DNA of 64,000 nucleotides from Microbacterium sp. H1-D42 (GTDB taxonomy: Bacteria; Actinomycetota; Actinomycetes; Actinomycetales; Microbacteriaceae). Under the pieces are notes generated by a model. That model had not been told where the DNA came from, ran no database searches, and saw only the letters and a list, made by a program, of their open reading frames with translations. Within the stretch, counting starts at the first letter, position 1, and each line of letters starts with the position of its first letter. A program made the position numbers and the translations under genes. This document shows, piece after piece, positions 1-14,085 of this stretch. The stretch spans positions 2,728,001-2,792,000 of the forward strand of contig NZ_CP093342.1 of assembly GCF_022637555.1 (NCBI RefSeq). Reading direction: 5' to 3'.

Positions 1-98
1 CGGAGAGATCGGATGTCACTTCAGCACCCTATTGCCTCCTCACGCCGGCACGGCGGCTACGCGCGTAGATCACTCTTCCCATAGCACGAAGAAAGTCT

Positions 99-104
99 TA
101 TAGT
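99..104 (+). promoter_or_regulatory. possible -10 box upstream of the Hsp70-like gene
   Basis: The sequence TATAGT fits an actinobacterial -10 box. The region 18 bases upstream (CTTCCC) is a poor -35. Nothing else is recognisable in the first 145 bases, and the long reverse-strand reading frame there is a shadow of the gene that follows. Confidence 0.3.
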
Positions 105-148
105 TGCGGCATCCAGGATTTGGATGACTGGGGAATTCGGCGGAAGTG

Positions 149-2065
149 ATGGGCGAGTCATACGTACTCGCGCTCGACGTAGGCACGACCAGTGTGACGA
201 CGGTCTCTGCCAGCGCTGCTGAGCGCGAAGGGTTGCAGGTGGTACCGCTTGCGGTGGGGCGCGAGCGGGCCGAGATTGCGGTGCTCGCGTATGTCACCGA
301 GGAGGGTGACGTGCGCTTCGGTGCCGAGGCCGCCGAGCGCGGGCTCGAGCACCCCGAGCGCCTGGTGCGTGATTTCACGCGATCGGTCGGCGATGATGTG
401 CCGATCGTGGTGGGCGGATTCGCGATGCCCGCCGAGGAGCTTTTCGCGCGGATGGCGCTGTGGATCGTGTCGACGGTGGCCGCCGAGCGCGGCATGCTGC
501 CCGGCGCCGTCGCGGTCGCGCATCCGACGGGCTGGACGCGGTATCGGATGGATGCTGTGAGCACCCGTCTTCGCGGGCTCGGCCTACCCGATGTGCTGCT
601 GGTGCCATCAGCGGTCGTCGCGGTGGAGCATTACGCCTCGAGCGACGCACGCGGCCATCAGGTGGGGGTTTACGACCTCGGGGGCAGCACGTTCGAAGCG
701 AGCGTGCTTCGCCGCTTGGATCTGCTGGCAGAGCCGCAGGTGCTCGAGGTCGGCGGATTCGACGTCGACGCCGCGCTGCTTCGTCACGTACTCAACCTGG
801 TCGGCGCAGCCGGCGGCGAGAATCCCCAGATCACGACCGGACCCGATGCCGCCGAGACCTTCGCGGTCAGCATGCGCACCGATCTGCTGCATGCCCGCCG
901 CGCCGTGACCACGGCCAAGGAGGCGCTGTCGTTCAGCGCCGATGCGGCAGTGCCGGTCACACTCGCCAGCGCCTCGACGAGCGTGCGCGTCACGAGGTCG
1001 GAGCTCGACGCGATGGCGCGCCCCGCGATCGCCGCGACGGTGGACTCATTCGAGCAGGCGCTGGATTCTGCGGGCATCGACGCGAGTGACCTCGACGAGA
1101 TCATCCTGATCGGCGGATCCGCGCGCATCCCGCTGATCGCCCAGCTGCTCTCGGAACGCATCGACCTGCCGCTCACGGTGCCCGAGAATCCGCAGTACGC
1201 CGCAGCCATCGGCGCGGCGCACGCGGCGTGGGCGCGTCTGCAGAAAGCCCCAGCCCCACTCGCCGAGTCCGAGCTGACGGAGGTTCCAGAGCCCGCCACC
1301 CATCGCTTGGCCCTCGCGGCCCTGCGCCCGTCCGGCCGGATTCGGGTGCCGTATGGCGCGGCCACGGCGCTGGTCGCCGGCGCCGTGATCGTCGCCGGCG
1401 GGATCGTGTTCGCCTCTACGACGCCGCTCGGCACCGGAATCGATTCCGCGAAGGGCGCATCTCACGAGGGATCGTCCAACGGTCCAGGCACGATGTCGCT
1501 GCTGCGCTCGACATCCGGATTCTCGGTGCTCGGCGGGACGCCGGTGGTGGCAGAGGACTCCGACGACCAGGACGATGACGAGGACGGCGATGAGTCGTCG
1601 CCGTCAGAACGCGATGCGTCACGCACGCCGGACGCGACCCCAGGCCGGGGTGGTCCGAAGGTGGAGGCCCCAGACGCGGCCGATCCGGGGCCGCGCACTC
1701 CGACATCGTCGCCGGATCCCGGTGCCCAGCCGGCCGGTGGCCCTCAGGTCGAGAACCCCGATCCGACACCCACACCGACACCGACCCCGACACCGACCCC
1801 GGATCCGACACCCGATCCGACCCCGGATCCCACGACCGATCCGACACCCGACCCCACGCCCACCACGGACCCGACCCCCGATCCGACACCGGACCCGACA
1901 CCGACGACTGACCCCGCACCGGACCCGACACCGGACCCCACACCAGCGCCTGATCCGACGACGGACCCCGCTCCAGAACCGTCGCCGACGTCAGCGCCCG
2001 CAGACCCGTCCCCCCAACCGTCACCGCCGCCGACGGATCCGCCAGCAGCCGACCCGGCACCCTGA
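149..2065 (+). CDS. membrane-anchored Hsp70-like (actin-fold ATPase) protein with extracellular Pro/Thr/Asp repeat tail
   Basis: The N-terminal ~380 residues form an Hsp70/actin-type ATPase domain: phosphate-1 loop ALDVGTTSV near residue 10, phosphate-2 [10 protein letters not shown] near 175, and adenosine motif [10 protein letters not shown] near 320. A DnaK-type substrate-binding domain is missing. Instead there is a hydrophobic segment near 405-427, then an acidic Ser-rich stretch and about 100 residues of [10 protein letters not shown] repeats. The topology expected is an ATPase inside and a repeat tail in the wall. GTG at 146 directly precedes ATG 149; GGCGGAA is better spaced for the ATG. 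It stands 21 bases before the LuxR-type regulator and probably shares its transcript. Use as a stress sensor or chaperone of the Ini proteins is inferred. Confidence 0.85.
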
Positions 2066-2086
2066 TCGAAAGCGGCCCCCGACGCC

Positions 2087-4627
2087 ATGACCATCACCTC
2101 CGAGACGCTGGCAGAGCGTCCTCAGTCGAATGCCCCGCTGACGTGGGAGCGTCAGCTGCGTCCGGCGCTCGACGCGGTCGGCATGCGCACGCCGCGAGCG
2201 GCGCTGGTCGGCACGGCAGGATCGGGGAAGTCGACCGGCCTGCAGCACCTGCACGATCTGTTCCTCGACGAATCCCGTGACGTGCTGCTCGTACAAGACG
2301 CCTCCGACGGTCTTGATGAGATCCCGGCCGCGCAGGTGCTGCTCGTCGACGACCTGCACCTGCTCTCAGACGCGCAGCTGACCCAACTCGGTGAGCGCGC
2401 CGATGACCCGACTGCGGCTCTGATCGTCGCGCGAAGACCGTGGCCCGCACGGCCCGCCGTGCGCGCGATCGCCCGCCGCCTCGAGCAGCAGGTGCCCGCG
2501 ATCGTGCTCGGTCATGTGTCGCGGTCGGACGTGCTCGACCATCTCGTCGCGCTCGAGATGACGATGTCCGACGAGTGCGTGGAGCACATCCTGCAGGCCA
2601 CGCTCGGCATGTCATGGCTGGTCGCCGCCGCGGTGCAGCACCACGATGCGCGCGACTGCGCACACGACGGCGCGCACGGTGAATTGGATCGTTCACTCGC
2701 CGAACTGATCATCCATCGGCTCGACTCCAGCGATGACGAACTGCGTCACGCTGTCGAGGAGGTCTGTGTCGCAGCACCCGCCCAGTCGCACGCCATGCCG
2801 GATTCCCCGGAGGACGACTGGGTCATGCAGGGCTATGCCCAGGGGCTGCTGCTGCGCAATGGCGACGCCGCACCGCTGGTGCGCGAAGCGGTGCGCGAAG
2901 CGCTTCCGACGCATCGCCTGATCGACCTGTGCGCCCGCTTTCCCGAGGCTCTGGAGCACCGCGACGGGCTGCGACCCGTGCGCGATGTGCGGGTCGCGGA
3001 TGCGCTGGTGGCCAGCGCCGATCGAATGCTCTCTGCCCAGCCCCTTCGTGCGAGCGAGCTCTACGAGGCCTCAGTCGAGTGCGGGGCAGACCCGCATCCG
3101 CTCGCGGTGCGCCGGGCGCATGCCGCGTGGTCGGCCGGCGACCTCGACCAGGCGACAGGGTTCGTCGACGAAGTGCTGCGCACCGCCTCGGGCGAGATCC
3201 TCTCCTCGATGGCGACGGTCTCGGCCGCGATGTGGTCGGCGCGCGCCATGATGACGCAGGCGAACGAGGTGTTCCGTTTTGCCCCGCCGCAGGACATCAC
3301 TGCGCGCGCGAACGCGACCGTCGCCGCGTATGGTGTCGGCCAGATCGATGCTGATGCTGTTGCCGATCAGCCGGCGGTGCCGGATGCCATCCCCTCCGCC
3401 TTCGGCGTCGCGATGGAGCTGCTTCGCGCCGGGCTGCACAGCACGATGACGCCAGAGGACGGCGAGGATGCGCTGCCCACGCTGCTGCGCGCCGCCGAGA
3501 TGTACTCCAGCTCACGTCGCGCCGGCGCTCTGGTGGAGCTGCCGGCGGTGATCGCGGCCATCACCGCGCTGAACCTCGGCAGACTCGTCACCGCGCAGAC
3601 CGTGCTCGACGACGCGATCGCCCGTGACCACGGCGGACCGTGGGCGCGCACGCGCCTGCTGCTGTGGAGTGCGTGGGTGGCCGTGCAGCGCGCGCACCCG
3701 GTCGACGCCAAGGAGCTGCTGGATCGAGCGGTCGCCACTTCTGAGACGACGCTGCCGACCCGCGACGCGCTGATGCTGCATGCCGTCCGCGTCGCGATCG
3801 CACGTCGGTACGACGACGCCTCGGGCTTGGAGGCGGCGTGGCTCGAAGCCCGCGGCAGCCTGCTGCGCGCTGATGTCGACCTGTATCTGCTGCATCCGCT
3901 CGCCGAGCTGGTCAGCGCAGCGGCGCGCATCGGCGATGCACCGCGGGTCGAGGCGCAGCTGACGCGCGCACTGCAGATCGTCGAGGGACTCGGCAGCCCG
4001 CCGATTTGGTCGGCGCACGTGCACTGGGCCGGCATCCAGCAGGGCATCCTGCTCGGCCGACCAGACCGCCTCGCTCCGCACGCCAAAGCGCTCGTCGCCG
4101 CGGCCGCTCACAGCCGCGTCGCCGCCGGGATGGCCAAGGCGGGACGCGTGTGGACCGATGTGCTGGCGGGAACGGTGGATCCGGATGCCGTGGTCAGCGC
4201 CGCCGAGGGACTCGCCGGCATCGGACTGATGTGGGATGCCGCACGGCTCGCCGGTCACGGCGCCGCGCGCACCGACGACCGCAAGGTGGCGGCTCAGCTT
4301 CTCGCGTGCGCCCGCGAACTGCATCCGAACGACGGCACCAGGCGCCCCACTCCGACGACGAGCGACGATGTCGAGAGCACGACGCAGGCGCCGGCTGAAG
4401 AGGTGCTCAGCGACAGGGAGATCGAGGTCGCGCGACTGGTCGTGCAGGGCAAGACCTACGCCGAGATCGGCGAATCGATCTTCATCTCCCCGCGCACCGC
4501 AGAGCACCACATCGCGCACATCAGGCGCCGTCTCGGCGCCACGTCGCGCTCGGCGCTGCTCGCACGGTTGCGCCAGCTGCTGGGGGACGGCGGCGTCAGC
4601 GCGGGGTCTTCGGACCAACCCCCGTGA
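2087..4627 (+). CDS. STAND-type LuxR-family transcriptional regulator, IniR-like
   Basis: This 846-residue protein has an N-terminal P-loop NTPase (Walker A GTAGSGKST at 42-50, Walker B LLVDDLH near 85-91), a long Ala-rich helical middle resembling TPR-type sensor repeats, and a C-terminal LuxR HTH beginning LSDREIEVARLV with SPRTAEHHIAHIRRRLG as the recognition part. Size and plan match MalT-like regulators, including mycobacterial IniR (Rv0339c), which controls iniBAC. Its place between the Hsp70-like gene and an IniB-type gene supports control of this island. Its ligand cannot be read from the sequence. The probable target is the dyad at 4641-4663 and 11219-11241. Confidence 0.85.
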   Translation: MTITSETLAERPQSNAPLTWERQLRPALDAVGMRTPRAALVGTAGSGKSTGLQHLHDLFLDESRDVLLVQDASDGLDEIPAAQVLLVDDLHLLSDAQLTQLGERADDPTAALIVARRPWPARPAVRAIARRLEQQVPAIVLGHVSRSDVLDHLVALEMTMSDECVEHILQATLGMSWLVAAAVQHHDARDCAHDGAHGELDRSLAELIIHRLDSSDDELRHAVEEVCVAAPAQSHAMPDSPEDDWVMQGYAQGLLLRNGDAAPLVREAVREALPTHRLIDLCARFPEALEHRDGLRPVRDVRVADALVASADRMLSAQPLRASELYEASVECGADPHPLAVRRAHAAWSAGDLDQATGFVDEVLRTASGEILSSMATVSAAMWSARAMMTQANEVFRFAPPQDITARANATVAAYGVGQIDADAVADQPAVPDAIPSAFGVAMELLRAGLHSTMTPEDGEDALPTLLRAAEMYSSSRRAGALVELPAVIAAITALNLGRLVTAQTVLDDAIARDHGGPWARTRLLLWSAWVAVQRAHPVDAKELLDRAVATSETTLPTRDALMLHAVRVAIARRYDDASGLEAAWLEARGSLLRADVDLYLLHPLAELVSAAARIGDAPRVEAQLTRALQIVEGLGSPPIWSAHVHWAGIQQGILLGRPDRLAPHAKALVAAAAHSRVAAGMAKAGRVWTDVLAGTVDPDAVVSAAEGLAGIGLMWDAARLAGHGAARTDDRKVAAQLLACARELHPNDGTRRPTPTTSDDVESTTQAPAEEVLSDREIEVARLVVQGKTYAEIGESIFISPRTAEHHIAHIRRRLGATSRSALLARLRQLLGDGGVSAGSSDQPP

Positions 4628-4640
4628 ACCCCCCATCGGG

Positions 4641-4663
4641 TATCGGGTAAACCCCCGATGCCG
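4641..4663 (+). promoter_or_regulatory. conserved dyad operator upstream of the IniB-type gene
   Basis: ATCGGG and CCCGAT face each other across six bases and continue into GATGCCG. The 13-mer ACCCCCGATGCCG recurs exactly upstream of the second IniB-like gene (11219-11231, other strand), preceded in both by TCGGG. It ends 18 bases before a TACGAT box, so it covers the -35 position as an activator site would. Binding by the LuxR protein at 2087-4627 is inferred. Confidence 0.6.
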
Positions 4664-4681
4664 TGAGGGCATGGCTGCGCA

Positions 4682-4687
4682 TACGAT
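4682..4687 (+). promoter_or_regulatory. -10 box of the IniB-type gene
   Basis: TACGAT lies 84 bases before the start codon. The predicted leader contains a hairpin with 8-base arms ATCCTGGC (4703-4710) and GCCAGGAT (4727-4734) and ends in the strong ribosome site TAAGGGGG. Confidence 0.5.
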
Positions 4688-4771
4688 CCGAGTCAAGGTG
4701 TGATCCTGGCGGCTGAGGGGCATTGAGCCAGGATGCGAAAGAGAAGTTGAAGAAGTTAAGGGGGCTTGCAG

Positions 4772-5614
4772 ATGACTTCACCAGTAGAGACCATCGCGGA
4801 CGCACTCATCAGGTTCATCCTGAGTCTGCTGAACGATCCGAATGCGGCTGGGGAGTTCGCCGCACGACCGACCGCGACGCTCGCCGACAACGGACTGCAA
4901 GGCGTCTGCATGGCCGACGTCGCCGCCGTTCGTCCGGTGATCGTCGACAATCCGAGAGTGGTCCACCACGACAATCCACCGCCTCCGCCGCCTCCAGGGC
5001 CGGACGACCATGAGACGGTGCGCGAGATCATCCGCATGGTGCAGCAGTACACCACCATCGATGCGCGATCGACGATCGTCGATCAGTCGGTGAACCAGAA
5101 CATCTGGACAGAGGGCGGCGACGTCACCCAGGTGTTCGACCAGGAGGCCGTGGTCGCTTCTGGCGATGACTCGATCGCCGCCGGCGATGACGTCTCGGTC
5201 GTCGACTCCGATGTCGACGTGTCGATGGGCGACGTGTCGATCGGCAACGAGACCAACGACGGCAGCTTCAACCAGACCGGCGGCGGCAGCGATGCTGAAG
5301 ACGGCGCGGCCGAGGTGGATGCCACCGACGAGACGATTCCCGCAGACGCGACCGGCGACGGCGCCGACGACGTCACGCCTGACGCTGTCACGACGGCAAC
5401 AGATGCGGCCGATGGTGCGGTCGACACTGCCACCGATGCCGCGACAGCGGCCGCACAGTCGGCAGCGCCTCCTCCCCCGCCGGCCGATGTGCCAGAGCCC
5501 GCCGACCTGCTGGAGGGCGACATGGCCTCCGGTGGCGGCGACACCTACGAGGCCGACGCCTCCAGTGCCGCGCTCGATGACACAGCGGTCGATGCGCCGC
5601 TCGAGGATGGCTGA
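4772..5614 (+). CDS. IniB N-terminal domain protein
   Basis: This is a 280-residue acidic protein. Residues 1-58 (MTSPVETIADALIRFILSLL, then an ARPTATLADNGL segment) match the IniB N-terminal domain. A Pro run near 68-76 leads to DARSTIVDQSVNQNI (97-111), ASGDDSIAAGDD (129-140) and MGDVSIGN (152-159), which recur in the protein at 9965-11149. The C-terminal 110 residues are rich in Asp, Ala and Thr. ATG 4772 has TAAGGGGG seven bases upstream; TTG 4766 is in frame but poorly placed. There is no classical signal peptide. IniB proteins in mycobacteria are made under cell-wall stress; the molecular role is unknown. Confidence 0.8.
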   Translation: MTSPVETIADALIRFILSLLNDPNAAGEFAARPTATLADNGLQGVCMADVAAVRPVIVDNPRVVHHDNPPPPPPPGPDDHETVREIIRMVQQYTTIDARSTIVDQSVNQNIWTEGGDVTQVFDQEAVVASGDDSIAAGDDVSVVDSDVDVSMGDVSIGNETNDGSFNQTGGGSDAEDGAAEVDATDETIPADATGDGADDVTPDAVTTATDAADGAVDTATDAATAAAQSAAPPPPPADVPEPADLLEGDMASGGGDTYEADASSAALDDTAVDAPLEDG

Positions 5615-6254
5615 CACTCCGCGCAGGACTCAAGCGCCTCCTCCCTCGTCCCAGGGAGGAGGCGCCGAGTCGGTCGCGCCGTACGGTTCGCGCGAACTGC
5701 CGACCCGCCCGGCGATGGCCAGTCCCAACCTGGCCCCGGTGATCGTCAAGGCGACACCGCCGTTCTCGATCCGGCTGAGCCTGTTCTTCTGGGTGCTCAG
5801 CTTCGCCGTCGGCGCATTCACGATCGTGTACATGTTCGTGATCCGGCAGGACCTGCTGCCCAAGATCACTGAGGTCGCGAAGACCGCGACAGCAGGTCGC
5901 GAAGACGTGACCTACGAGCGGGCGGCCGACATCATCTTCTGGGTGGTGTTCGGCGCGATGGTCGCGGTGCTGTTCACGCAGGTCACGTTGCTGGTGTCGT
6001 TCATGGGACGCCGGCGCCAGGTGCGCTGGTGGCAGCTGCTGACGTTCGGCGTGCTGCTGCTGCTGGTGCTGCTGTCACCCGAGTGGGTGGCGCTCGGGGC
6101 GAAGGGGGAACCACTGCAGCCGCTTCTTGCGGCGCAGGCCGCCCTGGTTCTGCTCGCCCTGCTCAGCAGCATCCTGCCCGGAGGCGTCGCCTGGTCCGCC
6201 CGCCGGTACGATGTTCGGCGCGGGCCGCAGGGGTCGGGCCAGTCCGACCTCTGA
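5607..6254 (+). CDS. four-segment membrane protein of the Ini island
   Basis: This 215-residue protein starts inside the end of the IniB-type gene (8-base overlap), so translation is probably coupled. A polar Pro-rich N-terminus of ~50 residues precedes four hydrophobic stretches: LSLFFWVLSFAVGAFTIVYM, IIFWVVFGAMVAVLFTQVTL, LLTFGVLLLLVLLS and LLAAQAALVLLALLSSILPG. No family is recognised. A long reading frame extends upstream to 5166 but only shadows the previous gene. The last 180 bases overlap the end of the convergent dynamin gene. A membrane partner for the dynamins or IniB protein is a guess from position. Confidence 0.75.
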   Translation: MADTPRRTQAPPPSSQGGGAESVAPYGSRELPTRPAMASPNLAPVIVKATPPFSIRLSLFFWVLSFAVGAFTIVYMFVIRQDLLPKITEVAKTATAGREDVTYERAADIIFWVVFGAMVAVLFTQVTLLVSFMGRRRQVRWWQLLTFGVLLLLVLLSPEWVALGAKGEPLQPLLAAQAALVLLALLSSILPGGVAWSARRYDVRRGPQGSGQSDL

Positions 6255-7736
6255 GGCGATGGCCGCCAGGCTGCGCAACACCGCCTGGCACACCATCAGC
6301 GTGCTCCGCTCGGCCAGCGGAGAAGCCGCCAGCGCACGCCAGCGGTCGATCTCAGCGCTCGTCCGGTCGGCGATGTCGCTGGGCGTCGCGTCGGCGGCCA
6401 GACCCAGGCGGTCGGATGCGGTCACTCCGGCCGCCCCGAGGATGCGCGCCGCGTCTTCGGCGTCCGATGCCGGCAGCGGCAGGCCGCGCGACCGCGCCTG
6501 AGCGAGCAGCGAGAGCTCACGCAGCACGTGCGCCGAAACGGTGAAGCGCTCGATCCCCGCTCGGATGCTGTCGACGCCGGCGCGCGGCGAACGGCGCAGC
6601 AGCGCCTGCAGCTGGAGCACCACGCCGCGCGCTTTCAGCGTCTCGGCACGAGGCTGGAACTGCGCCTTCACGAAGTCCTGCAGCTCGATCAGTCCGCTCT
6701 GATGCACCAGGGCATCCGACAGCTCGGACGAGCTCGTCACGCCGCCGCGGATGATCGCCGTCGCCAGCCGCACGCCGAAGATGCCGAACCGCGACAGCAG
6801 CTCCTCGCGCACCGGCACACTCAGCCCGGTGGCGTCGCTGGGGCGGACGAACCGGTCCGCCGACACGAGCAGGCTCTCCCGCGCGGCGCGCTCGAGGCCG
6901 GCGAGCTCGCGGAAGGCGATGTACTCGCTCTCCCGCAGTGTGCGTGCCCCCTCCGCGAGCAGCCCCGCGACCGGCACGACGCCCAGTGCGAGGGCCGCCA
7001 GATCGCCGTCGCGCTCGTAGCGCTTGGCGACGCGACGGGCCGACAGCAGCGAGTCGATTCGGCCCGAACCGACCTCGTCGGTGCGCGAGAGCACGGCGAC
7101 CGCGCACACGCTCTGCGCCGCACCGGCGGCCGTGTCGCGGAAGGCCTCGAGGAACTTCACGTCCGAGCCGTGCAGATGGCGCATCAGGTACACGACGGCG
7201 TCCGCCGACGACGGCGAGTCCTCGGGTGTGAGGAAGCGCGCCGTGCGGGCCGAGGTGTCGCCGGAGAGCGAGGCGATGCCAGGGGTGTCGATGAGGATGA
7301 GCGATTGCAGCCCATCCAGCGGCCAGCCGACGTCGATCCACTCGATCTCCTCGGCAGTGCGCCCGTCGAGATCGAACACGAGCAGTCCGTGTTCGCGTCG
7401 GATCGGCATTCGCACGCAGCGCCCGTCACGCAGGTGCATGGTGATCGCCGGAGTAGGCGAGTACCGGTACCAGGTGACGATGCGGGTGCACTCGGCCGTG
7501 TCGGTGGCGGCGATCCGCTCGCCGAGCAGGGCGTTCAGCAGCGTGGATTTGCCGGCTTTGACCATGCCTGCCAGAGCCAGCCGCAGCGGCTCGTGCAGGC
7601 GGATCTCCAGCCGGTCGATCAGGGCGGTGGCCTCGCGATCACCCGCGTACACCGAGCGCGCGGTGCGCAGCAGATCCTCGGTCTCTGCGATCACGGAGTG
7701 CGCCGGCGCGTCCAGCTGCGCTGTGGCTGCCATCAT
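6075..7736 (-). CDS. dynamin-like GTPase, IniC type
   Basis: This 553-residue protein carries a dynamin-family GTPase domain: G1 GMVKAGKST at 57-65, a candidate switch Thr in AATDTAECT near 77-84, G3 DTPG at 150-153, and G4 LSRTDE near 215. A helical region follows. It is shorter than the upstream GTPase, as IniC is relative to IniA. The start ATG 7736 overlaps the upstream stop codon (ATGA), so the pair is translationally coupled. Such tandem bacterial dynamins usually act together on membranes. The last ~60 codons lie antisense to the convergent membrane-protein gene, so the C-terminus is unusually extended and basic. Confidence 0.85.
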   Translation of the reverse strand: MMAATAQLDAPAHSVIAETEDLLRTARSVYAGDREATALIDRLEIRLHEPLRLALAGMVKAGKSTLLNALLGERIAATDTAECTRIVTWYRYSPTPAITMHLRDGRCVRMPIRREHGLLVFDLDGRTAEEIEWIDVGWPLDGLQSLILIDTPGIASLSGDTSARTARFLTPEDSPSSADAVVYLMRHLHGSDVKFLEAFRDTAAGAAQSVCAVAVLSRTDEVGSGRIDSLLSARRVAKRYERDGDLAALALGVVPVAGLLAEGARTLRESEYIAFRELAGLERAARESLLVSADRFVRPSDATGLSVPVREELLSRFGIFGVRLATAIIRGGVTSSSELSDALVHQSGLIELQDFVKAQFQPRAETLKARGVVLQLQALLRRSPRAGVDSIRAGIERFTVSAHVLRELSLLAQARSRGLPLPASDAEDAARILGAAGVTASDRLGLAADATPSDIADRTSAEIDRWRALAASPLAERSTLMVCQAVLRSLAAIASEVGLARPLRPAPNIVPAGGPGDASGQDAAEQGEQNQGGLRRKKRLQWFPLRPERHPLG

Positions 7737-9607
7737 GCTTCCACCTTCGCGCCGATCGCGGCCGGCTGTGCGCCCGCTCGGAGCGCCGGTGTGGGCGCCG
7801 GCGGCAGCGCGGGAATGGTCTTGCGCACGTTCTCGAGATCGCCGATGCGAGTGCGCAGCGCCCCGATACGCTGGTCGCGCGTCGCCGAGAATCCGGTTGC
7901 CGCTTGCTTGGCGCGCAGCAGCGCGTCGGCGAGCGAGCTGTGCAGCTCCTCGGCGAGCGACCCGAAGTGATCGCGGGTCGCGCGCTGCACCAGGCGCAGC
8001 CTGTCTTTCAGCTGCTTGCCGACTTGGAAGGTCACCTCGTCGATGTACTTGCGGACGATGACCTTCGCCTCCTGCTGGCGGCGGTTGAGCCTGTTGCCCA
8101 TGTCCTCGCGATAGGCGCGCCGTCCCACCAGCACCCCGGCCAGCAGCGAGAGCGGGTTGATCAGGGCCATGCCGACCAGGCTCGTGGCCAGCCCCACCAT
8201 CAGCACGCCGCCGTACGAGCCGCGCACGCCGATGTACATCTTCTCTGCGGCGCCCAGCTGCCCGGCGTCGAGGCCGGAGATGTCATCGACGACGTCGAGC
8301 ACTCCGGTGATGTCCGAGACGTCGTGGATCGGGATGTCGGACTGGTCCTGGCTGAACAGCTCTGCGACCTCTTCGGCCAGCCACCGCGAGCGCTCGTCCG
8401 TCCATACGAAGGTCTCCGAAACGGCCGCGGTCACGCGCTGATCGAGCCACTCGCGGATCTGATCCCAGATGGGGCCGGGGTCGCCGTCGTCGATCGCGCG
8501 CTCTGCCTCGCGCTGCACCTTGCGCAGTCTGTCGCGCACGTCGTGCTCCATGTCGGCGACGAGGTCGGCGATGCCGTCGGTCAGCAGCACCTGCCAGCGG
8601 GCCGAACGTCCGCGGAACTCATCGGCCTTGGATTTGGCGGCCTCGAGCTCGGCGATCATGCGCGGGGTGTCCTCGGGGTTCACCAGTGCGTTCAGCTCGG
8701 CCCGAAGCGACATCTCCAGCTGGTCGACGACCGAGATCAGCTCGTGCACGGCACTGCGCTCGTGAATGACCTCGGCGCGGCCGAGCACCTCACGACGCAG
8801 GTGCGCGACCAGCGCCGGAAAACCGGACTCGTCGTTGAGTGTGCGGTCCTGCAGCTCGGCAGCGAGCAGACGCAGATCACTCGACACCGAGAAGATCGGC
8901 ACATCATCGTGACCGCTCAGGTGCCGGCGGTCGATCTCTTCGATGCGTCGCCATTCCGGATACAGGTCGGTCTTGGCCAGCACCGCGGCGACGTTGGGCG
9001 ACATCCGCATGGCGTGCTGCAGAAACTGCACCTCGGGCTCTGTGTACTCCTGCGAGGCGTCCGAGACAAGCAGCACCGCGTGCGCGCTGGAGAGCGCTGC
9101 CAGCGTGGCCAGCGAGTTCGACGATTCGAGTCCGCCCACGCCTGGCGAGTCGACGAGCTTCAGCCCGCCGCGCAGGATCTCGCGCGGCAGCAGCACCTCA
9201 GCCGAGACGATGCCGCGCTCGTTGCCGGGATTGCCCCGCTCGGAGACGTAGTCGGCGAGCTGCTCGAGTTGGATCTCGCGCCTGTTCGGTGCGGCGCCGT
9301 TGCCGGTGGGCTGCTCCACCACCCAGGCCGACGGCTGCTCCGCGTAACCGACGCTCGTGGGCACACTGGTGGCCACGTCATCGTCCACCGGGCATGCCGG
9401 TGCGTTGACGAGGGCGTTGATGAGCTTGCTCTTGCCCTGCTTGAACTCGCCGACGACGATCACCCGCACGGCAGGATCTGCCAGCCGCTCGCGGGTGTTG
9501 GCCAATCGTGCAGCGAGATCCTGACGGCCCGCGGACGCGGCGAGATCGCCGACATCGTGGATGACGTCGACGATCTGAGTCTGTTCGGTACTGCGGTGCT
9601 CCGGCAC
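7733..9607 (-). CDS. dynamin-like GTPase, IniA type
   Basis: This is a 624-residue large GTPase: G1 GEFKQGKSK near 53-61, G3 LVDSPGVGGL near 150, G4 AKTDLY near 207, and a long helical stalk interrupted by a hydrophobic stretch (GGVLMVGLATSLVGMALI) that probably inserts in the membrane. IniA in mycobacteria is a membrane-associated dynamin linked to tolerance of cell-wall drugs. GTG 9607 is chosen because GAGGGGG stands six bases before it; the reading frame runs 77 codons further upstream, but that part overlaps the acidic-protein gene and has no family character. It is followed by the IniC-type gene with a 4-base overlap. Confidence 0.85.
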   Translation of the reverse strand: MPEHRSTEQTQIVDVIHDVGDLAASAGRQDLAARLANTRERLADPAVRVIVVGEFKQGKSKLINALVNAPACPVDDDVATSVPTSVGYAEQPSAWVVEQPTGNGAAPNRREIQLEQLADYVSERGNPGNERGIVSAEVLLPREILRGGLKLVDSPGVGGLESSNSLATLAALSSAHAVLLVSDASQEYTEPEVQFLQHAMRMSPNVAAVLAKTDLYPEWRRIEEIDRRHLSGHDDVPIFSVSSDLRLLAAELQDRTLNDESGFPALVAHLRREVLGRAEVIHERSAVHELISVVDQLEMSLRAELNALVNPEDTPRMIAELEAAKSKADEFRGRSARWQVLLTDGIADLVADMEHDVRDRLRKVQREAERAIDDGDPGPIWDQIREWLDQRVTAAVSETFVWTDERSRWLAEEVAELFSQDQSDIPIHDVSDITGVLDVVDDISGLDAGQLGAAEKMYIGVRGSYGGVLMVGLATSLVGMALINPLSLLAGVLVGRRAYREDMGNRLNRRQQEAKVIVRKYIDEVTFQVGKQLKDRLRLVQRATRDHFGSLAEELHSSLADALLRAKQAATGFSATRDQRIGALRTRIGDLENVRKTIPALPPAPTPALRAGAQPAAIGAKVEA

Positions 9608-9647
9608 TTGTCCCCCTCTTGCGCGCGGATGCTGGCTGCCGTGCTTC

Positions 9648-9869
9648 TCAGCCGAGCAGGTCGCCCTCTGGTGCGTCGCTGCCAGGGTCGGCGACGCCAG
9701 TGGCATCGTCGTCCCAGAACAGGTCCGCATCTCCCCAGTCTGATTCGTCGATATTGACGAGCTCCTGGCTGAACGAATCGGTCGAGAAAGGGTCGAACAA
9801 CGGACCGTCTCCCCAGACGGTGTCCTGCAGGCCGTCATCGGCCCCGGGGACTTCGTGTTCCTCAGACAT
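9648..9869 (-). CDS. small acidic protein upstream of the IniA-type gene
   Basis: A 73-residue, strongly acidic, Trp-containing protein (DESDWGDADLFWDDD near the middle) with no membrane segment. CCGGAG lies nine bases before ATG 9869, and the stop is 40 bases before the IniA-type start, so it is probably the first gene of the dynamin operon. The family is not recognised. Its charge suggests an adaptor or a regulator of the GTPases, but this is only inference. Codon third positions look coding, with little sign of a competing frame. Confidence 0.6.
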   Translation of the reverse strand: MSEEHEVPGADDGLQDTVWGDGPLFDPFSTDSFSQELVNIDESDWGDADLFWDDDATGVADPGSDAPEGDLLG

Positions 9870-9910
9870 GGCTTTCGCTCCGGATCAGATGCTTCAGGAG
9901 TTTAGTGGTG

Positions 9911-9944
9911 TGCCCGGCCGTCCACCAGAGTGGACGGCCGGGCA
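9911..9944 (-). terminator. strong hairpin between the second IniB-like gene and the dynamin operon
   Basis: The 15-base arms TGCCCGGCCGTCCAC (9911-9925) and their exact complement (9930-9944) enclose a CAGA loop. No U-tract follows on the minus strand. It probably terminates or attenuates transcription after the highly repetitive IniB-like gene, or protects its 3' end. Confidence 0.65.
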
Positions 9945-9964
9945 GGTCATGCGGCTTCTCAGTC

Positions 9965-11149
9965 TCAGAAGTCGAACTCGTTCGCGTCAGCGTTGGGGCT
10001 GAGCACGTTGGAGTTGTCGACGTCGACATCCACATCGACGTCCGTCTCGTTCGAGTTGTCCTGGAACGAGTCGTTGACGCTCCAGTTGTCGGAGTTGTCG
10101 GTCATCGAGTTGTCCTGGAACGAGTCGTTGATCGACCAGTTGTCAGAGAAGTCCTCATTGAACGAATCGGTGTTCCACGTGTTCCCGATCGAGATGTCTC
10201 CCATGTCGATGTCGGTGTCGATGTTGCGGACGTCGACGTCGCCGCCAGCTGCGATCGAGTTGTCACCCGAGGCGATATTGCTGCTCTGGCCGAAGTACTG
10301 ACCGACGTTGCCGCCGCTCGCGCCGCCGCCCATCGCACCAGCGTCTCCGCCGGCACCACCGTCGTTGTCCCCCGAGCCCGCGAAGGACCCTGCAGCTCCG
10401 CCGGCACCGCTGCCGCCGGCCGCGCCGCCGGCACCGCCGGTGCCCGCCCCTCCGGAACCACCCGAGCCGAGAATGCCGAGGCCGCCATCGCCGCCCGTGC
10501 CTGCTCCGCCCGCACCGCCGTTGCCGCCGTTGCCGGTGTCGCCGCCGGCCGCCCCCGAGAACGCGGGGCCGCCCCAGCCGCCGTCCGCGTCTCCGCCGAC
10601 TGCGATCGCCGCTCCGCCGCTGCCGGAGGAGGTGGTGATGTTCTGGTTGACCGACTGGTCGTTGACCGTGGTGCGCGCGTCGATGTCGATGTCGACATCA
10701 GCGCCGCCGCCGTGCATCTTCGACATGGCGGCGAAGTCGCCGTCTCCCACGCCGATGTTGAGGTCGCCCATTCCGGTGTCGTACTGGCGGATGCCTGCGT
10801 TGACCGAGTGGTCATAGAGCGTCTGGTTGCCCGAGTCGTGCACCGAGTTGTCCTGGAACGAGTCGTTCACCTGGAACGAGTCGTTGATGGAGTCGTCGTT
10901 CTCCGAGTTGTCGGAGTTGTCCGAGTTGTCGGAGTTGTCGGAGTTGTCCGAGTTGTCCGAGTTGTCGGAGTTGTCGGAGTTGTCCGAGTTGTCCGAATTG
11001 TCGTTGCCCGAGTCGCTGACGTCCGTGTCGTTGTTCGAGAGCAGGTCGTTGTTCGAGTCGTTCGTCGAGTTGTCGTTGCCAGAGTCCTGGACGTCGAGCC
11101 CGAGGTTCCACTGAGCTCCGAGAACGTTGATGTTGTCGTTCGCAGCCAT
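9965..11149 (-). CDS. IniB-like repeat protein with Asp-Asn-Ser and Gly-rich regions
   Basis: This 394-residue protein starts at ATG 11149, with AAGGGGAT as ribosome site. Its order is: a short N-terminus (AANDNINVLGAQWNLGLDV), an Asp-Asn-Ser triplet repeat at ~50-81, NDSFQ-type repeats near 88-100, the motif DARTTVNDQSVNQNI (157-171), a Gly/Ala-rich block at ~176-280 like PE_PGRS or IniB proteins, ASGDNSIAAGGD (293-304), MGDISIGN (316-323), and further NDSFQDNS repeats. It has no membrane segment or signal peptide. The shared motifs make it a distant paralogue of the protein at 4772-5614, but without the IniB N-terminal domain. A long repetitive structural or surface role is inferred. Confidence 0.8.
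   Translation of the reverse strand: MAANDNINVLGAQWNLGLDVQDSGNDNSTNDSNNDLLSNNDTDVSDSGNDNSDNSDNSDNSDNSDNSDNSDNSDNSDNSDNSENDDSINDSFQVNDSFQDNSVHDSGNQTLYDHSVNAGIRQYDTGMGDLNIGVGDGDFAAMSKMHGGGADVDIDIDARTTVNDQSVNQNITTSSGSGGAAIAVGGDADGGWGGPAFSGAAGGDTGNGGNGGAGGAGTGGDGGLGILGSGGSGGAGTGGAGGAAGGSGAGGAAGSFAGSGDNDGGAGGDAGAMGGGASGGNVGQYFGQSSNIASGDNSIAAGGDVDVRNIDTDIDMGDISIGNTWNTDSFNEDFSDNWSINDSFQDNSMTDNSDNWSVNDSFQDNSNETDVDVDVDVDNSNVLSPNADANEFDF
10907..11002 (-). repeat. 9-base-type tandem repeat encoding (Asp-Asn-Ser)n
   Basis: About ten tandem 9-base units read GAGTTGTCC or GAGTTGTCG on the plus strand. They encode alternating Asp-Asn-Ser on the minus strand without breaking the frame. The copy number is likely to vary between strains. 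Confidence 0.8.
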
Positions 11150-11218
11150 GATTTTGATCCCCTTCATCAAAGAGTGCCGTTTGGCGCCTAAGAAGAGTGT
11201 GCGCGGCTGCGGCTGCCG

Positions 11219-11241
11219 CGGCATCGGGGGTGATCCCGAGG
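11219..11241 (-). promoter_or_regulatory. second copy of the Ini-island dyad operator
   Basis: On the minus strand TCGGG, four bases, then ACCCCCGATGCCG repeats the site at 4641-4663. It ends about 19 bases before CACTCT (11199-11194), a poor but correctly spaced -10. Further C-rich copies (CCCCCATCG, CCCCCTATCG) lie upstream at 11240-11300. Confidence 0.55.
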
Positions 11242-11300
11242 GTTGACGGGGGCACCCGGGGGATCGATAGGGGGTCGATGGGGGCTGATAGGGGAATGCA

Positions 11301-11333
11301 GAAGGACCCGGATGCCAGGCATCCGGGTCCTTC
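11301..11333 (-). terminator. hairpin terminator after groES
   Basis: Perfect 15-base arms GAAGGACCCGGATGC (11301-11315) and complement (11319-11333) with a three-base loop begin 20 bases after the groES stop. There is no clear U-tract, as is usual for hairpin terminators in high-GC actinobacteria. Confidence 0.75.
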
Positions 11334-11352
11334 TGGTGATTCGAGGGGTGCG

Positions 11353-11649
11353 TCAGCGGACGACGACCGCCAGCACGTCGCGAGCCGAGAGCACGAGGTA
11401 CTCGTCAGCACCGAACTTGACCTCGGTGCCGCCGTACTTGCTGTAGAGCACGCGGTCGCCCACGGCGACGTCCAGCGGAACGCGGTTGCCGTTATCGTCG
11501 ATGCGGCCGGGGCCCACTGCCACGACCTCGCCCTCCTGGGGCTTCTCCTTGGCGGTGTCAGGGATGACCAGACCGCTTGCGGTGGTCTGCTCGGCCTCGA
11601 CCTGCTGGATGACGATGCGGTCCTCGAGCGGCTTGATGGAAACCGACAC
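11353..11649 (-). CDS. groES: GroES co-chaperonin
   Basis: The 98-residue product has the complete 10-kDa chaperonin sequence: [20 protein letters not shown] at the N-terminus, the mobile loop [19 protein letters not shown], and [20 protein letters not shown] near the end. It caps the GroEL folding chamber in the cytoplasm. No groEL is adjacent; in many actinobacteria the main groEL lies elsewhere. Two CIRCE-type operators upstream indicate HrcA repression released by heat shock. The sequence is normal in length and motifs. Confidence 0.97.
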
Positions 11650-11688
11650 GGTGTACCTCTTCTTTCGTGACTGGAGATCAGAAGACTA

Positions 11689-11715
11689 TTAGCACTCTCA
11701 TACCGAGGGTGCTAA
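11689..11715 (-). promoter_or_regulatory. CIRCE operator 1
   Basis: TTAGCACTC, nine bases, then GGGTGCTAA matches the HrcA-binding CIRCE consensus with one substitution in an arm. It lies just downstream of the groES -10 box. Confidence 0.9.
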
Positions 11716-11719
11716 CTCC

Positions 11720-11749
11720 AGTGTATGCCGACGGCTGGCACTCACGCAA
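11720..11749 (-). promoter_or_regulatory. groES promoter
   Basis: On the minus strand TTGCGT (11749-11744) and TACACT (11725-11720) are separated by 18 bases. The -35 lies inside the second CIRCE and the first CIRCE follows the -10, so HrcA would block both polymerase contacts. Confidence 0.55.
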
Positions 11750-11761
11750 TGCGAGTGCCAA
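11735..11761 (-). promoter_or_regulatory. CIRCE operator 2
   Basis: CTGGCACTC, nine bases, then GAGTGCCAA is a second CIRCE-like dyad with near-perfect arms, 19 bases from the first. It also lies just upstream of the divergent methyltransferase promoter and might affect it. Confidence 0.8.
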
Positions 11762-11775
11762 TCGAACGCCGCGCG

Positions 11776-11781
11776 TAGGCT
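11776..11781 (+). promoter_or_regulatory. -10 box for a leaderless transcript
   Basis: TAGGCT, six bases, then GTG 11788. The spacing puts transcription start at the start codon. Confidence 0.55.
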
Positions 11782-11787
11782 TTGCGT

Positions 11788-12966
11788 GTGGAGATGGGTG
11801 AACTGACCGCACTGCTCACTCGCGAGGGGCTCGCCCTGCTCGACGAGGTGGGCCCGATCGAGTCATCAGCGGATGTGGCGAAGGCCGTCTCACGGCTGCG
11901 GGCTGCCGGGCACTCCCCCGAACTCGTCTCTGCCGTCGTCGGTCAGGCGCACTTGCGAGTGAAGGCACACGCGAAGTTCGGCGAGTTCGCCGCACGGATG
12001 CTGTTCACCAGGGCCGGGCTCGAGCAGGCCACCCGGTTGCACGTCGCCACGCTGCACGCCGTGCGGATGCGCCAGGCCGACATCACGACGGTCACCGATC
12101 TCGGCTGCGGCATCGGCGGCGACAGCCTCGCCTTCGCCGCCGCCGGGCTGGACGTGACGGCGGTGGATGCTGACGAGGTCACCGCCGCGATCGCCGCCTA
12201 TAACTTGGCTCCCTTCGAGGCGACCGTCCGCCAGGGCCTCGCCGAGGACGCCCTCCCCACAGAGGGCGCCATCTGGCTGGATCCGGCGCGACGGACCGCC
12301 GGGCACAGCGAGACGCGTCGCACCTCAGCATCTGATTGGTCGCCGTCTCTGGATTGGTGCGCAGGCGTCGCCCGCACACACCCGACCGGCATCAAGCTCG
12401 GCCCCGGCCTCGACCGCGACCTCATCCCCGACGATGTCGAGGCGCAGTGGGTCAGTGCCGATGGCAGTGTCGTCGAGCTGGTGCTGTGGAGCGGCGTGCT
12501 GGCGCGCCCTGGCATCCGACGAGCGGCTCTGGTCGTGCGCGACGGCAAGACGCACGAGCTGACGGCGGCGGCGGATGCTGAAGACGAGCCGGTGCGCGAA
12601 CTCGGCGCGTTCCTGCATGAGCCAGACGGCGCGGTTATCCGCGCGCGGCTGATCGGCGAGGCGGGGCGGATGCTGGAGGCCGGCATGCTCGACGAGCAGA
12701 TCGCCTATCTCACCGGCGATGCCGCGCTGACGAGTCCGTTCGTGCAGTCGTTCCGGGTGCGCGAGACCATGCCGGCTCACGTGAAGGCGATCAGCGCCGC
12801 CCTGCGTGCGAACGACATCGGGCGGCTCGAGATCAAGAAGCGCGGGATGGACATCGATCCTGCCGCGTTCCGCAAGAAGCTGAATCTGAAGGGCTCGAAG
12901 GCGGCCACGCTGATCCTCACCCGCACGCCCGCCGGACGCGTGGCGATCCTCGCCGATCGGGTCTGA
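11788..12966 (+). CDS. class I SAM-dependent methyltransferase with THUMP-like domain
   Basis: The 392-residue protein has the SAM-binding motif TDLGCGIGGDSLAFAAAG near residues 107-124 with acidic VDAD on the next strand, and LDPARR near 165 as a motif IV-like segment. The C-terminal region, ending with KKRGMDIDPAAFRKKLNLKG, resembles the THUMP-like domain of a conserved actinobacterial methyltransferase family. An RNA substrate is plausible but unproven. GTG 11788 is chosen for its leaderless promoter spacing; TTG 11782 and ATG 11794 are alternatives. The stop (12964-12966) directly abuts the stop of the convergent gene, in the sequence TGATCA. Confidence 0.85.
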   Translation: MEMGELTALLTREGLALLDEVGPIESSADVAKAVSRLRAAGHSPELVSAVVGQAHLRVKAHAKFGEFAARMLFTRAGLEQATRLHVATLHAVRMRQADITTVTDLGCGIGGDSLAFAAAGLDVTAVDADEVTAAIAAYNLAPFEATVRQGLAEDALPTEGAIWLDPARRTAGHSETRRTSASDWSPSLDWCAGVARTHPTGIKLGPGLDRDLIPDDVEAQWVSADGSVVELVLWSGVLARPGIRRAALVVRDGKTHELTAAADAEDEPVRELGAFLHEPDGAVIRARLIGEAGRMLEAGMLDEQIAYLTGDAALTSPFVQSFRVRETMPAHVKAISAALRANDIGRLEIKKRGMDIDPAAFRKKLNLKGSKAATLILTRTPAGRVAILADRV

Positions 12967-14085
12967 TCACTCCTCAGGGAAGCCGGTCTTGTCATCTGCT
13001 GTGGCACAGTACCCCGAATCGACGTCGCACACCACGGATGCCGGGGTGCGGATGACGGTCAGCAGCGGACCCCGCGAATCGGTCATGCGCACGCTGTACG
13101 TGGCCCCAGGCACCGAGAGGTCGAGGGCTCGCGCAGAGTCGAGACCACCGCACGCCTGAGCCGAGATCTCGGTGGCCGTCGCGACCAGCACGCAGTTCTG
13201 CGCGTCCTGATGCAGCCAGATCGGGACGTCACCGTCGTAGCCGATCAACTGCAGCATGTCTCCGCGGAAGCCCTTGCTGTCGAGGAACTCGGCGATCGGC
13301 AGCTCGTCGCCGGAGTACTGCGAGCGCCAGTTCCACTCCTGGTCATCGTCTTGACGCTGCATGACCAGGACCTGCGTCCCCGTGATGTCCTCGATCAGAG
13401 AGGCCCAGACCGTCTCCCAGCGATCGTCGTTCTCGATCGAGGCGCTGGCCTGCAAGCCGAATTCGTTGCCCTCGCGATCCGACTGCACGCACGAGGGCGT
13501 GGGATACCGCTCGCTGCCACCGGTCTCGCTGCCGCCCGTGAGGAAGAAGCAGTCGAGTTCGCCGTCGTCCTTGGTCGCGGTCCAGGCATCGACGCCATAC
13601 TTCGAGCCGACCAGTTCGATGGAGCCGGCATCGAGGTCATCGGATTTCTGCAGCTCGATCCACACGTCGCGCTGGGCGCCGGTCATCGCCGGCGCGCCGC
13701 CGTCGCGACCGAAGGCGAGCCAACCGGCGCCGAATCCGAGGAGGAGCGTGAGGACGGCCGCGAGCGGAGCAAGCCAACGGCGAGGGGGCTTCGCGAGTTC
13801 TGCGGGAGCCGTCGGTGGCTGAGGTGGTCCCTGTCCCTCGTCGCGTTCCGCCCGTTCCGGGGCCGGAGGGCGTTCCAAGGGCGCTTCGTCTCGCTCGTGG
13901 GGCTCAGGGCGCTCAGGAGCGGGTGCGGTGACGGCCGGGGTCGGGGTGACTGCGACAGGCTCTGACTCGGCAGGTCGTGTCAGGCCCCGCAGTTCCTCGG
14001 CTTCGGCATCCGACAGGCCGCCGCCGGGTGCATAGGCCTTGTGCTCGAGTTCACGGCGGCGAGCGCGTGCGGCGTCATCCAGCAT
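12967..14085 (-). CDS. single-pass membrane protein with N-terminal PGGGLSDAEA motif (paralogue B)
   Basis: The 372-residue protein has an N-terminal segment RRRELEHKAYAPGGGLSDAE, a Pro/Glu-rich linker, a membrane span near 105-125 ending in GWLAFG, and an extracellular domain of ~245 residues with several Cys (LDCFFLTGG, CVQSD, NCVLVATA, ACGGLD, VCDVDSGYC). It resembles the next gene upstream over its whole length. It overlaps that gene by 11 bases and is last in the tsaB-rimI-tsaD transcript. No family function is known to me. Paired Cys suggest a disulfide-bonded exterior domain. Confidence 0.8.
   Translation of the reverse strand: MLDDAARARRRELEHKAYAPGGGLSDAEAEELRGLTRPAESEPVAVTPTPAVTAPAPERPEPHERDEAPLERPPAPERAERDEGQGPPQPPTAPAELAKPPRRWLAPLAAVLTLLLGFGAGWLAFGRDGGAPAMTGAQRDVWIELQKSDDLDAGSIELVGSKYGVDAWTATKDDGELDCFFLTGGSETGGSERYPTPSCVQSDREGNEFGLQASASIENDDRWETVWASLIEDITGTQVLVMQRQDDDQEWNWRSQYSGDELPIAEFLDSKGFRGDMLQLIGYDGDVPIWLHQDAQNCVLVATATEISAQACGGLDSARALDLSVPGATYSVRMTDSRGPLLTVIRTPASVVCDVDSGYCATADDKTGFPEE

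Follow-up and report, generated by a model that had tools for sequence, protein, structure and literature searches.

The Ini system itself is already known from mycobacteria, where the iniR-iniB*-iniBAC genes have been described (PMC5760070, PMC6715688). IniR binds and activates iniBAC in mycobacteria, with binding upstream of iniBAC detected by chromatin immunoprecipitation (ChIP) in Mycobacterium tuberculosis; trehalose activates the Ini response, yet purified IniR multimerises without trehalose (PMC5760070). IniA was reported to cut membranes in vitro (PMC6715688). PMC5760070 also devotes one sentence to an Hsp70-like gene near the ini genes of M. smegmatis. Here we analysed an Ini locus of Microbacterium sp. 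H1-D42 (positions 149-11149 of a 64,000-nucleotide stretch of its genome, hereafter the window), which has a gene of this kind in a matching neighbourhood. Judged by sequence comparison, this Hsp70-like gene is a regular component of Ini loci and not a local extra. Relative to the M. smegmatis mention, the gene was found to be widespread, and its product to be mostly membrane-anchored, to lack a substrate-binding domain and to have changed catalytic columns in Mycobacterium. A conserved, predicted membrane protein co-encoded with IniR is a concrete candidate for the means by which the Ini response perceives wall damage.

The locus shares with the mycobacterial one (PMC5760070, PMC6715688) an orthologous IniA, an IniC-type partner, an IniB N-terminal domain and an IniR-type activator. 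CCCCTAA before iniB-type genes and a hairpin before iniA are further features in common with mycobacterial Ini loci. In contrast to these, the window adds a four-span membrane protein, an acidic protein and a further IniB-like protein that lacks the N-terminal domain; its effector genes form two convergent operons, and its IniR stays under the profile cut-off. The window IniA is an ortholog of M. smegmatis IniA (PDB 6j72, E = 2.2e-125 over residues 12-589) with a Dynamin_N match at E = 1.1e-20. The IniC-like dynamin directly downstream, overlapping iniA by 4 nucleotides (nt), matched the second dynamins of mycobacterial loci, for example at E = 5.8e-104 in locus L085. The IniB N-terminal profile IniB_NTERM (NF038175) scored 62.2 bits against a curated cut-off of 40, and only this one gene in the whole genome carried the domain. 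Behind the helical N-terminal domain lay a low-complexity polar region with a conserved DQSVNQNIW core. A β-solenoid or amyloid form of IniB was unsupported, the predicted model being confident for the N-terminal helices only (mean predicted local distance difference test score (pLDDT) 55.8, predicted template modelling score 0.35). The IniR-like protein matched GerE (E = 1.3e-13), with a LuxR helix-turn-helix at residues 773-824, and a P-loop at residues 42-50 was recognised by eye. By these matches, Ini membership holds for IniA and IniB, and IniR is a homolog that does not pass the equivalog cut-off. A first-pass annotation of this DNA had proposed a set of eight genes with a core like mycobacterial iniBAC. 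Open reading frames, translations and family matches bore out all eight frames, and the resemblance stands, with the IniA ortholog, the IniB domain over its cut-off and a homologous IniR. As far as the literature was searched, the wide occurrence of the membrane Hsp70-fold component, the changes at its catalytic residues, the boxes common to both operons and the recurring hairpin are new; the literature covered, which included few subscription papers and so leaves absence unproven, described an Hsp70-like Ini component only in the sentence on M. smegmatis.

At E 0.001, DnaK and the copy at the locus were the only two members of the Hsp70 family in the genome, a single contig of 3.66 Mb. A chance neighbour was rejected, since the one such gene other than DnaK adjoins iniR. 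The closest relatives of the Hsp70-like product that carried organism names came from Microbacterium. We then counted Hsp70-like genes, defined as matches to our own profile of the nucleotide-binding domain (NBD) at E 0.001, in several sets of genomes (labelled G) and loci (labelled L); since the loci are related, the counts are not independent. Within a class sample of 394 genomes, IniR was found in 38 (threshold E 1e-30) and IniA in 49 (E 1e-60), and all 38 IniR genomes were among the 49. A non-DnaK Hsp70-like gene lay on the fetched stretch in 37 of the 38; in the last one (G461) it was found on the next stretch, 0.94 kb past iniC, which brings the count to 38/38. Of these 38 genomes, 29 had the gene adjacent to iniR and on its strand; it was directly upstream in 28 and (also) downstream in nine, and 14 genomes had two or more copies. 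At family level, IniA was matched in 12 of 120 genomes, nine of them strongly, our own included, and the order Hsp70-iniR-iniB recurred in all eight other family genomes with strong IniA; one genome of the family IniA search (G099) was outside the fetched loci. The locus was present in six of 12 sampled genomes of the genus.

The association extended further. A search of 246 genomes across the phylum (IniA threshold 1e-40) matched 16, nine of them outside the class. The four strong genomes among these nine were fetched and the five weak ones left out; an Hsp70-like gene was present at all five loci of the four. In a named Mycobacterium set of 80 loci, which did not include M. tuberculosis, all 55 loci covering both iniR and iniC had an Hsp70-like gene, 53 by our gene caller and two (L153, L155) by tblastn. 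At least five of the named loci duplicate loci of the class sample (L154/L091, L175/L099, L179/L097, L186/L096 and L192/L103). In the block L151-L205, the caller placed the gene upstream of iniR in 39 of 41 cases, the exceptions being the two tblastn cases. Two loci outside this block, L085 and L086, had one copy on either side of iniR. The core set, the co-occurrence of which the first-pass annotation had left to be checked, is therefore conserved well outside this strain.

Some dynamin loci were arranged differently. Two loci of the same family as the window, L064 (G100, 8940-14561) and L065 (G020, 8818-14426), showed a divergent dynamin-Hsp70(TM)-dynamin order, the Hsp70-like protein with a predicted transmembrane (TM) segment, and had neither IniR nor IniB. 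Six loci (L106 and L110-L114, in G136, G259, G298, G349, G175 and G455) carried IniA/IniC-type dynamin pairs without IniR, IniB or an Hsp70-like gene. In five of these six, a protein of 215-285 residues with a weak IniR-profile match (18-21 bits) adjoined the dynamins on the other strand. A full Hsp70-like gene was not found at the IniA paralog loci L116 (G224) and L117 (G477).

The window Hsp70-like protein matched HSP70 (PF00012) at E = 4.6e-23 over residues 168-359. A substrate-binding domain was absent; the best PF00012 stretch covered profile positions 184-371 of 599, and a TM segment preceded by a basic stretch followed, and then a Pro/Thr tail with 28% Pro. The predicted structure had a pLDDT of 85.5, and its top structural matches were Hsp70 NBDs, BiP and DnaK first. 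Compared with DnaK/Hsp70 chaperones, the protein therefore has the Hsp70 NBD fold in prediction, but the TM segment and tail replace the substrate-binding domain, and the catalytic columns are changed. The layout was widespread. Among 157 copies of at least 350 residues without the DnaK substrate-domain motif, a TM segment was predicted after residue 330 in 141; five short copies and five with the motif, taken as the mark of DnaK, were set aside. In one Pfam-scanned copy each, the tail was a β-propeller, of virginiamycin-B-lyase/YNCE type in G126 and of PQQ/BamB type in G191, which would fit the expectation for a sensor.

The β-propeller proteins lie at 1434-3893 of L082 (G126) and at 1942-6480 and 14239-16365 of L115 (G191); in G191, three Hsp70-fold copies surround one dynamin pair. 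Very long Hsp70-like frames beside iniR were seen in L080 (G371, 10697-15019, 1440 residues) and L083 (G477, 11098-15072, 1324 residues). Large parts of both match no Pfam family, and their true starts are uncertain.

Alignment to the mycobacterial DnaK in L162 placed Thr and Ser of the window protein at the catalytic Lys and Glu columns of DnaK (K70 and E171 in E. coli numbering). These columns were also changed in L069 (Thr, Ala) and L057 (Gly, Ala). Val occupied the Lys column in 86 of 91 Mycobacterium copies of the named set, the 91 including two with Lys that are true DnaK, and in 26 of 27 of the class sample. The catalytic Lys was kept in 14 of 20 copies of the group labelled 'other' (one of them a true DnaK), four of six of 'fam2', four of six of 'genus/near' and both G100 and G020. 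Read from the alignments, at least two lineages have altered catalytic residues in a conserved NBD. The DO-GTPase/GAP1 systems with HSP70 and tubulin likewise combine paired GTPases with an Hsp70-family protein, in some cases without the peptide-binding domain (PMC7159879). They differ from the window in the GTPase family, and neither GAP1 nor tubulin was among the family matches here, no GAP1 model having been searched by name; the words dynamin, iniA and iniB are absent from the main text of PMC7159879.

A candidate regulatory element linked the two effector operons. The 13-mer ACCCCCGATGCCG, a putative IniR box, occurred exactly three times in the genome, and two of the copies precede the effector operons, one before iniB and one before the dynamin operon. 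The third was rejected as the mark of an additional regulon gene, lying inside a called coding sequence that looks like an ABC-transporter permease. A scan of the window that allowed up to two mismatches gave 10 matches, which equals the largest value of 100 shuffles, so that weight can be given to the exact copies and the comparative counts alone. At eight loci (six of the genus and two of near genera), 13 of 16 effector upstream regions contained CCCCGAYG, as did 5 of 94 others (P = 1.6e-10); for CCCCTA the counts were 11 of 16 and 0 of 94. Because the loci are related, these P values overstate the significance. Over all loci, CCCCTA occurred upstream of 51/62 iniB-type, 0/48 iniR, 0/43 iniC, 9/58 Hsp70-like and 12/323 other genes; for CCCCGAT-like sequences the counts were 50/62, 12/48, 0/43, 0/58 and 23/323, respectively. 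CCCCTAA was present in all 18 iniB-type upstream regions of nine mycobacterial loci. The region upstream of the window Hsp70 gene had no 9-mer in common with the effector promoters. The putative box thus appears to mark the effector operons and to occur little before the Hsp70/IniR pair, and it may be bound by IniR. The gap and upstream-region counts depend on a home-made codon log-odds gene caller, which places the starts of divergent genes with some uncertainty. Left out of the counts were a weak, spurious Hsp70 call in L074 and upstream regions under 90 or 150 nt.

The second recurring element was a predicted hairpin, which in the window forms a 15-pair stem in the gap that follows the second IniB-like gene. 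Across eight loci, 92.6% of the pair cells held, with 13 double-change cells. For four of the five measures used, none of 500 shuffles reached the observed value, and 129 of 500 did so for the fifth (further pair types). No slid version of the structure, which was taken from the window row, came near. Each of the eight regions folded better than the mean of its shuffles (z -2.0 to -6.4). In 45 loci, 35 same-strand gaps of 75-340 nt before iniA were eligible (the window was excluded, as the acidic gene intervenes), and every one held a hairpin of -30 kcal/mol or below; of 69 other same-strand gaps similar in length, 28 did. The hairpins compared between families differed in sequence. In sequence the element resembles a terminator without a T-run, and partial termination there would leave the IniB-type protein in excess. 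An excess of IniB was suggested from mycobacterial RNA sequencing by Boot and colleagues (PMC5760070).

Together, these observations suggest a mechanism that we hold at even chances, in which a membrane Hsp70-fold protein and IniR act as a sensor pair and, for membrane repair, turn on the boxed IniB/dynamin operons. The bitopic Hsp70-fold protein and the STAND/LuxR activator IniR, encoded together, would form a constitutive sensor module. The Hsp70/actin-fold NBD would face the cytosol, with one TM segment and a tail extending into the wall; the tail would sense the state of the wall and the NBD would relay it to IniR, presumably by contact. The protein would then act as a nucleotide-gated clamp and not as a folding chaperone. 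Under envelope stress, released IniR would bind the CCCCTA/CCCCGAT boxes and induce iniB with the four-span gene on one side, and the second IniB-like, acidic, IniA and IniC genes on the other. The hairpin after the second IniB-like gene would hold its protein in excess of the dynamins, which might cut or reseal damaged membrane. If true, this would give bacterial dynamins an Hsp70-fold partner and would mean that an Hsp70 domain has turned into a signalling module.

Several results weigh against this sensor pair. The IniR profile (NF038181) was matched at E = 1e-102 with only 345 bits, below the curated cut-off of 750 (best stretch residues 298-832 on profile positions 290-825 of 827), as was also the case in 20 of the 38 class IniR genomes. 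No TM segment was predicted in 16 of the 157 copies. The box split was not clean, given the 9/58 Hsp70-like genes with CCCCTA and the 12/48 iniR genes with CCCCGAT-like sequences, and the window iniR itself has a CCCCGAYG match at -10. The Hsp70-like gene lay away from iniR in nine of the 38 IniR genomes. In the Mycobacterium block L126-L150, made up of slow growers such as M. gordonae, M. asiaticum, M. gastri and M. simiae, it followed iniC in 25 of 25 loci, and in none of the 15 loci with iniR on the stretch did the caller place it upstream of iniR. The copy beside iniR in G224 was short and weak (37 bits), and a strong copy stood beside its IniA on another contig. An Hsp70-like gene also adjoined dynamin pairs with no IniR on the stretch in G100, G020, G132, G173, G191 and, outside the class, G542, so its partner may be the dynamins. 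It is possible, though on balance doubtful, that the protein is chiefly such a partner, a membrane-anchored scaffold or disassembly factor for an IniA/IniC coat, and that the pairing with iniR is operon economy; an analogy is the action of Hsc70 on vesicle coats in eukaryotes. The strongest evidence for it comes from these loci without iniR, including the dynamin-Hsp70-dynamin order of G100 and G020, and in the named Mycobacterium set a copy follows iniC in 32 of the 55 loci that span iniR and iniC. Against it, the gene stands directly upstream of iniR in 28 of 38 genomes and is mostly unboxed, so it seems not to be co-induced with the dynamins. It was also missing beside the dynamins of eight of the 11 class genomes with IniA only (on stretches of 14-20 kb; present only in G132, G173 and G191), and the changed catalytic residues of the window and nearly all mycobacterial copies argue against ATP-driven disassembly. 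Distance matrices did not separate IniR from IniA as the partner: over 34 loci all pairwise correlations were 0.92-0.96, with partial r for Hsp70 of 0.46 with IniR and 0.52 with IniA, and over 15 order-level loci the partial values were 0.37 and -0.17. Both roles may be true of the same protein.

The same changes at the Lys and Glu columns, together with the low-complexity tails, would also suit a passive tether between wall and membrane or a scaffold for the IniB-type proteins, with vestigial nucleotide binding and signalling through IniR and trehalose alone; trehalose does activate iniBAC in mycobacteria (PMC5760070). We regard this as unlikely, since the catalytic Lys is kept in many other copies, as counted above, and the fold appears intact in the predicted model. 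An anti-phage or conflict system with paired dynamins, like LeoABC or the GTPase-Hsp70 conflict systems, seems highly improbable. The patchy presence within the genus (six of 12 genomes), the occupied or empty site beside groES and the weak PADLOC matches of both dynamins to LeoA/LeoBC speak for it, but the Leo matches were limited to the two dynamins, no toxin or nuclease was among the Pfam matches of the gene set, the core set recurs across the phylum, and the IniA orthology points to a known stress response. CjDLP1/2 and LeoABC reportedly also include two dynamin-like GTPases encoded together, as in the window, and are not known to have an IniR, IniB or Hsp70 component. A bolder extension of the sensor proposal, which we offer tentatively, is that a membrane Hsp70-fold receptor built like a receptor kinase, with a cytosolic nucleotide module, one TM segment and an exchangeable external tail or propeller, could be the missing Ini envelope sensor and a partner of ancient origin for IniA/IniC-type dynamins throughout Actinomycetota; Mycobacterium and the window lineage would each have turned it into a pseudo-ATPase on their own.

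The gene spacing in the window suggests three transcription units. These are Hsp70-iniR (22 nt apart) and iniB-four-span (overlapping by 8 nt) on the forward strand, in this order, and second IniB-like-acidic-iniA-iniC on the reverse strand, where iniA and iniC overlap by 4 nt. The four-span frame also overlaps the 3' end of iniC in antisense by 180 nt (6075-6254). To the left, an EamA transporter gene starts at about window position 19, and therefore the locus is not truncated by the window edge; groES (11353-11649) is the neighbour on the right. The features are listed in the table.

Table. Predicted genes and sequence elements of the Ini locus, in window positions
Feature	Position	Strand	Basis and remarks
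Sigma-70-like promoter match before the Hsp70-iniR operon	76..104	+	9/12 consensus letters; 1 found vs 0.6 expected, weak
Hsp70-fold protein	149..2065	+	NBD residues ~5-360, TM residues ~404-422, 216-residue Pro/Thr/Asp-rich tail
IniR-like STAND/LuxR regulator	2087..4627	+	NF038181, GerE; 22 nt 3' of the Hsp70 gene
Putative IniR box ACCCCCGATGCCG upstream of iniB	4651..4663	+	Exact 13-mer
IniB-type protein with IniB N-terminal domain	4772..5614	+	NF038175, 62.2 bits
Four-span membrane protein	5607..6254	+	Hydropathy; order-level homologs
IniC-like dynamin	6075..7736	-	Dynamin_N, E 4.7e-9; matches second dynamin of mycobacterial ini loci
IniA dynamin, GTG start	7733..9607	-	PDB 6j72 IniA, E 2.2e-125
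Acidic 73-residue protein	9648..9869	-	Motif common to C-terminus of relatives' second tandem IniB-like protein
Predicted 15-pair hairpin between second IniB-like gene and acidic/iniA/iniC genes	9911..9944	-	Fold comparison
Second IniB-like protein	9965..11149	-	Asn/Asp/Ser- and Gly-rich; IniB core motif
Second exact copy of box ACCCCCGATGCCG, upstream of dynamin operon	11219..11231	-	Exact 13-mer
Two CCCCTA half-boxes upstream of dynamin operon	11269-11274 and 11289-11294	-	Read from sequence; CCCCTA enrichment

The four-span protein matched no family above cut-off among the Pfam and NCBI family profiles. Its spans were recognised by eye in the window and by hydropathy in four relatives. Homologs were found in all 16 order-level genomes with strong IniA and in no other locus searched, and in all 16 the gene was convergent to iniC, a position kept even where the rest of the arrangement differs. 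The second IniB-like protein had the IniB core DQSVNQNI, and a profile search did not find the IniB N-terminal domain in it. Short homologs of the acidic protein were present in L057, L068 and L069, from the genus and one near genus, and L071 had none. Its motif, of the type W-x-x-DAD-x-[IL]-WG, was also carried C-terminally by the second of the tandem IniB-like proteins in L058, L070 and L072. With this common motif and the same position, the acidic protein looks like a cut-down relative of that second tandem protein. The first-pass annotation had included these three genes in the set and had taken the locus as a core with added genes, the Hsp70-like gene among them. The second IniB-like, acidic and four-span genes do belong to the locus, by conserved position and by a shared box or operon, but the Hsp70-like gene, which was at ini in all 38 class IniR genomes, is no local extension. 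Nor is the inverted arrangement, which it read as a hint of a larger membrane-remodelling system, particular to this strain, all six genus loci seen being arranged alike.

The genomic site was compared between window positions 1-13000, the empty sites L120-L125 and the occupied loci L068-L072. In five of the six genus genomes without the locus, the EamA, groES and THUMP-like genes were contiguous, and in the sixth (G255) a single gene of 365 residues lay between groES and the EamA gene. The stretch of L069 ends before groES, and that of L072 shows no groES. A self-moving island was rejected, as a Pfam scan found no recombinase among the island genes. Where the site is occupied, the locus is flanked by groES and the THUMP-like gene in L068, L070 and L071, and by EamA and groES in the window; on this sequence comparison, the site adjacent to groES is one of gain and loss.

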